Virus record (IMG/VR): IMGVR_UViG_3300021373_001412 | Span: 1-34,521 of that record | Source of the DNA: a virus | DNA: 34,521 bases | Strand: one strand, 5' to 3' | Part shown: positions 1 to 34,521 of the stretch, piece by piece | Position numbering within the stretch: the stretch's first letter is position 1 | Layout of the letters: every line of letters begins with the position of its first letter | Made by a program: the position numbers and the translations under genes | The notes under the pieces: model-generated | What the model saw: the letters and a program-made list of their open reading frames with translations, nothing else | Database searches by the model: none | Told to the model about the DNA's origin: nothing

Positions 1-403
1 TAGCCCAGCGTGAATCTAGCATCTGCTTAGCCGCCTCTTTGAAGTCTCTGGCATCCACAGCCGCCTTCATCATCTTGAATTTAGAGAGCCGAGGTCTGCC
101 GAGTTGAAAGCACATATTGGCTATGATGTGCTGTGCCTCTTCTTGTAGCTCGTAGAAGTCTGGGTATAGTATTTCACAGTCTTTTAGAACTACAGATATA
201 TCAGCCTCAAACGCCTCTCTCACCCTTGTCTCAGACACTTTAATGCCAACAAAGCTATCTAAGCATAATGATTTATATTCGGGGTCTGACTGCACAATGA
301 GATGACCTATGCCGAATGTTGGATGTCCCTCAGAGCATAAGTATATCTCATCTACCCTGCCCTCATCAGCCGTGATTTCAGCTTGTAATTTATCCAAGTT
401 CAT
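1..403 (-). CDS. T4-type endolysin (GH24 lysozyme), N-terminal part, cut by the window start
   Basis: Translating the minus strand from the ATG at 403 gives MNLDKLQAEITADEGRVDEI and continues to ...LDSRWA at base 1. The N-terminus has the phage lysozyme signature: E14 in DEGR, then GHPTFGIGHL at 26-35, matching T4 lysozyme E11 and T26 with identical spacing (E-x8-C-x5-T). The residue aligned with catalytic Asp20 of T4 is Cys23. The enzyme would cleave cell-wall peptidoglycan at the end of infection. No signal peptide is seen, so export would need a holin. The ATG overlaps the end of the TSCPD-like gene by 14 bases. The missing C-terminus is found at the right end of the window (34470-34521). 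Family assignment is strong; activity with Cys23 is inferred. Confidence 0.93.
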   Translation of the reverse strand, partial: MNLDKLQAEITADEGRVDEIYLCSEGHPTFGIGHLIVQSDPEYKSLCLDSFVGIKVSETRVREAFEADISVVLKDCEILYPDFYELQEEAQHIIANMCFQLGRPRLSKFKMMKAAVDARDFKEAAKQMLDSRWA

Positions 404-608
404 CTAAACCCTCTCCTTGCATCAGTTTTGAGGCAGTAACGCCTAACTTATACATGGCATCGTCCAGCTCTGATTCGCCAGCCTTGTTGCCTCGCTTGGT
501 CATAAATACTTCTACAGCCTCATTGGTTTGCGGATGAAAAGAGACAGTTACGGCTAGATTTGAGCCAATATCAGTGGTTATACATGGTCTACGATTAGGG
601 ATATTCAT
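390..608 (-). CDS. TSCPD-domain-like small protein
   Basis: This 72-residue protein is nearly all one small domain. The core (residues about 18-65: LAVTVSFHP, then EVFMTKRGNKAGESELDDAM and LGVTASKLMQ) resembles the TSCPD domain found at the C-terminus of B12-dependent ribonucleotide reductases and as free-standing phage ORFs. No CxxC pair is visible, so metal binding or redox function is not supported. It starts inside the end of the upstream nuclease gene (14-base overlap) and its end overlaps the lysozyme start, so it lies within the co-transcribed minus-strand unit. No ribonucleotide reductase is encoded here, so its role is unknown; the resemblance is from memory of the family pattern. 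Confidence 0.72.
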   Translation of the reverse strand: MNIPNRRPCITTDIGSNLAVTVSFHPQTNEAVEVFMTKRGNKAGESELDDAMYKLGVTASKLMQGEGLDELG

Positions 609-1050
609 TTAGTACCTCTATGGTTTTTCGCCAGCTATCTGATTCGATTTCTGTATTATCAAAGAAGCTGGGTTGCTTAGTTATTTTTATCTGATTGATA
701 CCAACGACAGGCATAAAAAAACAGGTGCGCTGTTCAGTGGCAACAAGGGCTAATATATCAAAATCATTTCTGGTTGGCATCCGTTTTCTTCTAATGCCAT
801 TCACGTCTTTTTTATTGCCCAAACCCATCTGAAAATATAGGCGGTTCTTATGCTGTCTTGATTCCTGACAGCTTCTCACTTGCACTAAATAGCTATCACC
901 GTTCTCAATGTTCCAGCATACCAAGTCCACAGAATCCTGCTGTGCCATCGCACAACCCCAGCCTCTCTGTAGTATTGCCGCCATAGCTATGCACTCGCCT
1001 ACAAGTCCGTAACTTGAATGGCTCAATCTTTCAGCTAGGAATCTATTCAT
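595..1050 (-). CDS. PDDEXK_11-like small nuclease / resolvase-fold protein
   Basis: This 151-residue protein has the layout of small PD-(D/E)XK proteins: YGLVGECIAMAAILQRGW with E19 (motif I), D42 in SVDLV, then VQVRS with Q57 and R59. The usual form of the last motif is QxK or ExK; here the lysine is replaced by arginine, which may weaken or alter metal-dependent cleavage. Similar proteins are annotated as group I intron endonuclease-like (PDDEXK_11) or resolvase-like. It follows the HTH gene with a short overlap and precedes the TSCPD-like gene, within the recombination/replication operon. A role in DNA processing is inferred from fold and context. Confidence 0.7.
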   Translation of the reverse strand: MNRFLAERLSHSSYGLVGECIAMAAILQRGWGCAMAQQDSVDLVCWNIENGDSYLVQVRSCQESRQHKNRLYFQMGLGNKKDVNGIRRKRMPTRNDFDILALVATEQRTCFFMPVVGINQIKITKQPSFFDNTEIESDSWRKTIEVLNEYP

Positions 1051-33792: not shown

Positions 33793-34167
33793 TCATTTTG
33801 TATCTGTTTTCTTACCCTTGTCGTAGCTTCTCATACCAGCTAGACCCAGCATCCCAAACAATAGCGGCATCATAACCGACATATCAGCTTGCGGTATTGT
33901 GATTCCAAAGCCAGCACATATCGGGCTAACCATGTAGTTGATGCCCAGAGATAAACCGCATATCCAGCCTATAAGGGGTCGCCAGCTAGCTTGAAACCAA
34001 TTTCCCTTAGCATCAGCCTTCAGCACCTCTATCTGCTGTAGTGCAAGCTCCTGAGCGTGATTATCAGCCATTGTAGCTAGCTCATGTGCTAACTGGTTCT
34101 TTTGGTCTTTATCCTCGATAAACTTATCCAGCAACTTAGTTGCAGGAGCAATTAGAGCTTGTATCAT
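33793..34167 (-). CDS. Holin of the 3TM superfamily
   Basis: The 124-residue product begins MIQALIAPATKLLDKFIEDK, DQKNQLAHELATMADNHAQE, then LKADAKGNWFQASWRPLIGW, ICGLSLGINYMVSPICAGF and MMPLLFGMLGLAGMRSYDK. This matches the GTA/phage '3TM holin' family (helical N-terminus, WRPL-GW start of the first membrane helix, LLGMLGLAGMRS-ek end). AAGGAG precedes the ATG. It would open the inner membrane so that lysozyme reaches the cell wall. Last gene of the minus-strand unit. Confidence 0.87.
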   Translation of the reverse strand: MIQALIAPATKLLDKFIEDKDQKNQLAHELATMADNHAQELALQQIEVLKADAKGNWFQASWRPLIGWICGLSLGINYMVSPICAGFGITIPQADMSVMMPLLFGMLGLAGMRSYDKGKKTDTK

Positions 34168-34264
34168 TTCTTCTCCTTATTACATCTTCACGCCAACGAT
34201 ATAGATTAATGCCTGTGTTAAGCCCTATAAGCCCCAACAGGAGTGCTTCCCACCATTCTGGCAT
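34136..34264 (-). CDS. 42-residue membrane peptide in the lysis cassette
   Basis: ATG at 34264 (inside the preceding TAA, as TAATG) gives MPEWWEALLLGLIGLNTGIN, LYRWREDVIRRRNDTSSNCS, CN-stop. One membrane helix (about 7-22) is followed by a basic segment; its 3' end overlaps the 3TM holin gene by 32 bases in another frame. Size and place suit an antiholin, a pinholin or a spanin-like peptide, but there is no lipobox. The double overlap supports translation. Confidence 0.6.
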   Translation of the reverse strand: MPEWWEALLLGLIGLNTGINLYRWREDVIRRRNDTSSNCSCN

Positions 34265-34473
34265 TAGTGCTTCTCCGAGTTCAACCAGACCGCCAGTGAG
34301 CCTGTCATAGCCCCTGTGACCACACTTATTAGACTAGCTTGCTGTGTTGATAAATCTGGTTGTGATAATGCCCATTCGATACAACGAATGTAAACACCTG
34401 TCATGCACAGCATCATAAAACGCGGTAATATTTTAAGCTCTAATAACTTACGAGCTACTTCTTCTGCACTCAT
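34264..34473 (-). CDS. Small two-helix membrane protein, holin candidate
   Basis: The 69-residue protein has a charged start (MSAEEVARKLLELKILPR), a membrane helix (about 18-37: FMMLCMTGVYIRCIEWAL), a polar turn (SQPDLSTQQ) and a second helix (about 46-63: LISVVTGAMTGSLAVWL). This is the class II holin shape. Its ATG overlaps the lysozyme stop (ATGA), so it is part of the lysis operon. With a 3TM holin-like gene downstream, one of the two may be an antiholin. Confidence 0.72.
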   Translation of the reverse strand: MSAEEVARKLLELKILPRFMMLCMTGVYIRCIEWALSQPDLSTQQASLISVVTGAMTGSLAVWLNSEKH

Positions 34474-34521
34474 AATTTTTCCATCCTCTTTGCTAATCTA
34501 TTGGCTCTATTAGGGGTTTGT
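34470..34521 (-). CDS. T4-type endolysin, C-terminal part, cut by the window end
   Basis: The minus strand read inward from base 34521 (after one base) gives QTPNRANRLAKRMEKL-stop. QTPNRA is the conserved block that follows SRW-x-x in T4-type lysozymes, and SRWA is exactly where the fragment at bases 1-403 stops. With one extra base the join would read SRWA-x-QTPNRA, with x encoded by A?A (AGA, Arg, would be typical). The stop TGA overlaps the ATG of the next minus-strand gene as ATGA, so the two lysis genes are translationally coupled. This is a fragment of one gene, not a separate gene. Confidence 0.88.
   Translation of the reverse strand, partial: QTPNRANRLAKRMEKL

Follow-up and report, generated by a model that had tools for sequence, protein, structure and literature searches.

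Why does a phage lysozyme carry a cysteine where the lysozyme of T4 has Asp20, and does this residue mark an unusual, a redox-controlled or a decaying enzyme? The question is raised by an open reading frame at the left end of a viral record of 34,521 nucleotides, the whole of which was analysed and is called the window throughout. Our reading, to which we assign a probability of roughly 0.9, is that the gene encodes a soluble endolysin of an ordinary sort, the Cys form of a T4-type GH24 muramidase. Its family, the spacing of its triad, its fold (by model), the selection acting on it and the adjacent holin gene are established.

A T4-type lysozyme with cysteine at the Asp20 position

The features on which the analysis draws are the following.

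2..403, minus strand: first 134 codons of a T4-type (GH24) phage lysozyme or endolysin (PF00959 above cutoff, phrog_7, fold of the relative P0003)
362..364, minus strand: GAG, Glu14, the predicted general acid (T4 Glu11), invariant in alignments A1 and A2
335..337, minus strand: TGC, Cys23, at the position of T4 Asp20 and P1 Lyz Cys51, Cys in 5/5 of its own clade
317..319, minus strand: ACA, Thr29, the predicted water-positioning residue (T4 Thr26), invariant in A1 and A2
34470..34520, minus strand: C-terminal codons of the same lysozyme (QTPNRANRLAKRMEKL and a stop), among them the Arg at the T4 Arg145 position, fitting QTPNRA of the relatives
34264..34473, minus strand: ORF for a small protein of 69 aa with hydrophobic stretches beside the lysozyme (phrog_10198, unknown function, E=6.1e-06)
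33793..34167, minus strand: holin, GTA_holin_3TM (PF11351, E=3.3e-17, above cutoff; phrog_3427 holin, E=1.5e-30)

The translation of the minus-strand ORF 403..2 starts MNLDKLQAEITADEGRVDEIYLCSEGHPTFGIGHL. Over the 134-aa piece, its match to the Pfam family PF00959 (Phage_lysozyme) scores 27.5 bits (E=4.3e-06), above the cutoff of 22.3, and P0003, a 162-aa relative with 99% identity to the window piece, reaches 32.1 bits (cutoff 22.3). Endolysin and tail-lysozyme families are among its PHROG matches, including the 'endolysin' phrog_7 (E=2.3e-10), and among PDB sequences the T4 gp5 lysozyme domain and T4 lysozyme match it best. The AlphaFold model of P0003 (mean pLDDT 93.4) adopts the T4 lysozyme fold, as judged from Z-scores of 16.5-17.6 over 132-154 aligned residues against T4L-containing chains. 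Structures of P1 Lyz were absent from the best 50 matches of this fold comparison, which has no bearing on kinship.

The earlier note on this DNA had placed Cys23 at the Asp20 position of T4 lysozyme, and the alignment of the triads confirms this. Cys23 is encoded by TGC at 337..335 of ORF 403..2, and the spacing E14-x8-C23-x5-T29 equals both E11-x8-D20-x5-T26 of the translated T4 gene e and E42-x8-C51-x5-T57 of the P1 Lyz sequence. The window lysozyme satisfies the motif Glu-x8-(Asp/Cys)-x5-Thr in the form given in PMC8228626. Judging from these sequence comparisons, the gene encodes the Cys variant of a T4-type GH24 muramidase. With T4 lysozyme (gene e) and the gp5 lysozyme domain it shares the fold (Z about 17) and the spacing of the triad, whereas T4 lysozyme has Asp20 instead of the cysteine and is 26% identical to P0003. 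P1 Lyz (PDB 1XJT, 1XJU), at 18% identity to P0003, has the same E-x8-C-x5-T triad. Moreover, R140 of P0003 is invariant in A1 and A2 and in the window forms part of QTPNRA at the right end; it aligns with T4 Arg145, by the numbering read off alignment A1. In T4-type lysozymes this arginine holds the catalytic Glu (PMC6024848, PMC8228626).

Cysteine and aspartate at the second catalytic position

The idea that the cysteine is unusual is not supported. The motif of the family is printed as Glu(X)8(Asp/Cys)(X)5Thr (PMC8228626, PMC5674055, PMC9572377), PMC8228626 lists P1 Lyz with Cys51, and a 2012 paper described gp104 of the Caulobacter phage phiCbK as a lysozyme that is soluble, depends on a holin and has Cys in its triad (PMC3556154). 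Since the printed motif allows Asp or Cys, and P1 Lyz and phiCbK gp104 are known, the replacement is already described, and the window case is not new; it is also common among phage lysozymes. The same two enzymes had put into print what the earlier note considered plausible, a natural Cys enzyme, and the retained activity of T4 Asp20Cys, on which that argument was built, is indeed stated in PMC8228626, citing Hardy and Poteete 1991. Further background is contained in PMC9025707, PMC9239132, PMC8541568, PMC8879335, PMC5567305 and PMC2976769.

Like the window lysozyme, phiCbK gp104 is of the T4-lysozyme type, with a triad Cys and, as described in PMC3556154, no SAR domain; unlike it, gp104 reportedly has an inserted loop that sets Glu and Cys further apart, whereas the window has the standard spacing of 8. 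The Asp-type relatives from IMG/VR (L006-L014; 54-61% identity of the best segment) differ from the window in having Asp, not Cys, at the position, and L006-L009 and L012 have a Cys two residues after the catalytic Glu (Glu+2). In four of these relatives (L010, L011, L013 and L014) the catalytic Glu and Asp are separated by an insert (EGVKLNSEGDHIIYLD), which recalls the longer spacing reported for phiCbK (PMC3556154).

A survey of phage lysozymes for Cys at this position, as the earlier note had suggested, bears out how widespread it is. We searched IMG/VR with the degenerate pattern E-G-x7-C-x5-T-x-G-[I/V]-G-H and with its Asp version; each gave at least 120 matches, and no stop codon lay inside the motif among the matches listed. 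With the residue left free, 80 listed rows of the viral sample (IMG/VR) comprised 20 Cys and 60 Asp, 14 further new loci were all Asp, and the remaining 26 of 120 fell in loci already found by the Cys or Asp scans, where no other residue occurred with the motif. All viral pattern matches had Tyr at Glu+7. In genome contigs of GTDB, the 66 of 120 listed matches with this Tyr were 44 Asp and 22 Cys and nothing else; the other 54, set aside by a Tyr rule that was picked after the rows had been seen, were spread over 17 residue types, 3 D and 1 C among them, as chance matches would be. Among the 22 Cys rows of the genome sample, 20 start EGC, the P1 type. Cys is frequent at this position, at a quarter (20/80 listed viral rows) to a third (22/66 lysozyme-like genome-contig matches) of the two pattern samples. 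All 52 rows of A2 likewise have Asp or Cys only (30 D and 22 C), these rows having been chosen partly by Asp/Cys patterns.

The pattern, in which E, G, T and GxGH are fixed, misses lysozymes of other spacing. The restriction to Asp or Cys describes these samples and not all of GH24, since a Glu is reported at the second catalytic position in Caulobacter phage Colossus (PMC3556154) and, as reported, the second catalytic residue of the phage endolysin Lys68 was not recognised. GH24 enzymes outside the search pattern are more varied, as PMC4188523 describes an endolysin whose second catalytic residue could not be found.

An exchange between Asp and Cys requires two base substitutions (GAY to TGY). 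We followed it in two trees, both of which rest on short alignments and contain many unresolved forks. The first, built with FastTree, comprises 315 rows, 140 of them C and 175 D, from which the catalytic and the next two residues had been removed; duplicated and short rows were dropped, the window's own (window_C, identical to L005) being one of them. This tree requires at least 19 D/C changes, compared with 92 in the lowest of 50 shuffles. The second, an IQ-TREE of the neighbourhood with 81 rows and 146 columns, has 5 D/C changes, 2 of them forced by well-supported (starred) branches. Here, the Cys row L080 lies inside a supported Asp group, and the window's clade falls in a part where Cys and Asp rows are mixed and the branching is unresolved. 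Asp/Cys switching is recurrent in the family, a statement that covers the family and not its direction in the window's own lineage.

The single case is of small weight, adding one more Cys-type phage lysozyme. The survey is modestly useful, with Asp and Cys alone at the position in two pattern samples and repeated swaps between them, and natural Asp/Cys pairs are available to probe the function of the second catalytic residue in GH24.

Caged and uncaged cysteine enzymes

The residue numbers used here for P1 Lyz were checked on its sequence (E42, C44, C51, T57 and C13). To our knowledge, redox control is confined to the P1 disulfide cage, which requires a Cys at Glu+2 and a Cys in the N-terminal SAR segment. 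Disulfide caging of the catalytic Cys of P1 Lyz is described in PMC3556154 and PMC8228626; for phiCbK gp104, its authors judged disulfide control unlikely (PMC3556154). P1 Lyz differs from the window lysozyme in being a SAR endolysin with Cys44 (Glu+2) and with Cys13 in the SAR segment, neither of which the window protein has. Only 13 residues (MNLDKLQAEITAD) precede Glu14 in the window lysozyme, with no hydrophobic SAR segment among them; residue 16, at Glu+2, is Arg, and there is no Cys before residue 23. With neither a Cys at Glu+2 nor a SAR-like N-terminus, the protein cannot form a P1-type cage, which we rejected on sequence grounds.

The wider set in which we looked at this arrangement consists of 329 motif matches with Tyr at Glu+7, the window locus included; its 147 C and 182 D, drawn largely from residue-selected scans, do not give a frequency. 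An N-terminus was counted as SAR-like by a threshold of our own, a Kyte-Doolittle mean >1.5 over 16 residues. By this measure, the N-terminus is SAR-like in 39 of the 41 Cys enzymes that carry another Cys at Glu+2 and in 2 of the 106 that lack it, so that the disulfide cage and export go together. The corresponding counts for the Asp enzymes are 0/35 with Cys at Glu+2 and 11/147 for the others. The Cys enzymes are predicted to be of two kinds. One is P1-like, having both the Glu+2 Cys and a SAR-like N-terminus; the other, to which the window lysozyme belongs, is uncaged and soluble. The separation of the two is clean in the survey. Relatives of one gene in the set, that of L054, are annotated as SAR endolysin in 2/5 matched phage records. 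An uncaged Cys-type protein used as query is matched by many phage records, on similarity alone and irrespective of the catalytic residues. We also observed a Cys at the P1 caging position Glu+2 in 35/182 Asp-type matches (e.g. L006-L009), which have neither a catalytic Cys to cage nor a SAR-like segment.

Could the thiol of the soluble, uncaged Cys group do more than replace the Asp? We consider it unlikely that these enzymes are redox-gated endolysins or use an altered chemistry with a thiolate nucleophile; if true, this would account for the restriction of the position to two residues that are repeatedly swapped although the exchange takes two base changes. Distinctly unlikely, in our judgement, is a redox switch at Cys23 of the window lysozyme itself, in which oxidation or a disulfide with C47, C76 or C98 would keep the enzyme inactive until a trigger. 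P1 Lyz provides a precedent for a caged catalytic Cys (PMC3556154), but in the motif set cage and export travel together and the window protein, with Arg16 at Glu+2 and an N-terminus that is not SAR-like, has neither. As for the candidate partners, Cys at columns 76 and 98 is common to Asp-type relatives, whereas C47 is confined to the window's clade (4/52 rows of A2, each of them from this clade). Little favours redox gating in the uncaged soluble subgroup, C47 being the one loose end as a disulfide partner.

Selection, the divided gene and the lysis cassette

Decay of the lysozyme, with the change from Asp to Cys as a loss of function, is highly improbable. The commoner residue in both samples is Asp, and the ORF at the window's left end lacks its C-terminus. 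However, C23 is kept in four IMG/VR contigs (L002-L005, whose best segments are 96-99% identical to the window lysozyme), all with the same TGC codon, the triad is intact in all five sequences, and dN/dS is 0.03-0.08 (dN 0.006-0.019 and dS 0.10-0.50 over the 10 pairs of the five sequences). The gene is the record's one PF00959 match and thus its sole GH24 match, its truncation is accounted for by the contig ends, and the activity retained by T4 Asp20Cys (PMC8228626) also speaks against decay. The window lysozyme gene is under purifying selection, which agrees with the earlier note, where the conserved neighbours of the Cys had been taken to mean selection and not decay; these neighbours are intact. 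A sequencing or assembly error at the Cys23 codon, which that note had thought resequencing might reveal as an Asp, was rejected as very unlikely, to the point of being negligible, because four other contigs read the same TGC (Cys), and a change from Asp to Cys takes two base changes.

The lysozyme ORF leaves the window at the left end after 134 codons. At the right end, QTPNRANRLAKRMEKL and a stop (minus strand, 34520..34470) match the relatives' ending ...SRWAKQTPNRA..., and in L002-L005 (4/4) the DNA beyond window position 1 completes the lysozyme gene and then leads into the lysis genes of the window's right end, from 34272 downwards. Therefore the record, which is classed as linear, represents a circular or circularly permuted map that was cut open within the lysozyme gene (window 1..403 and 34470..34521). 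The full window lysozyme could not be read in one piece because the ORF is divided between the contig ends and the junction lacks at least one base; its two ends were translated apart and not joined. The gene is whole in nature, the ORF being cut by the contig end alone. Both decay and a naturally truncated gene were rejected on the basis of dN/dS, the intact triad, the continuity in L002-L005 and the right-end codons.

The holin is linked to the lysozyme in 4/4 relatives (L002-L005). Because the cassette around the gene has this GTA_holin_3TM holin, the window lysozyme is most likely the phage's endolysin. The lysis cassette also includes a 42-aa ORF alongside the 69-aa ORF and the holin; for the 69-aa protein (34264..34473) we infer a role there. 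As an ordinary soluble endolysin, the lysozyme would fold in the cytoplasm and pass through the inner membrane once the holin opens it. It would then cut the MurNAc-GlcNAc bond with Glu14 as the general acid, and Cys23, with Thr29, would play the role of T4 Asp20. Homology and the T4 Asp20Cys mutant suggest this catalytic role of Cys for the uncaged soluble group.

A small protein encoded at window 595..1050 (minus strand) gives a weak match, below cutoff, to the PD-(D/E)XK nuclease family PF11645 (E=6.4e-04). In L005, the place between lysozyme and holin is occupied by a 106-aa ORF (L005:3470-3790, plus strand) with the stretch DLDGDGIISDEE followed by hydrophobic segments; in the window this place is taken by the unlike 69-aa ORF (34473..34264), and the stretch can be read in L002 DNA as well. 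We take DLDGDGIISDEE to be EF-hand-like from its motif. If this is true, the L005 ORF would encode a calcium-binding membrane protein inside a lysis cassette, which would be worth attention.
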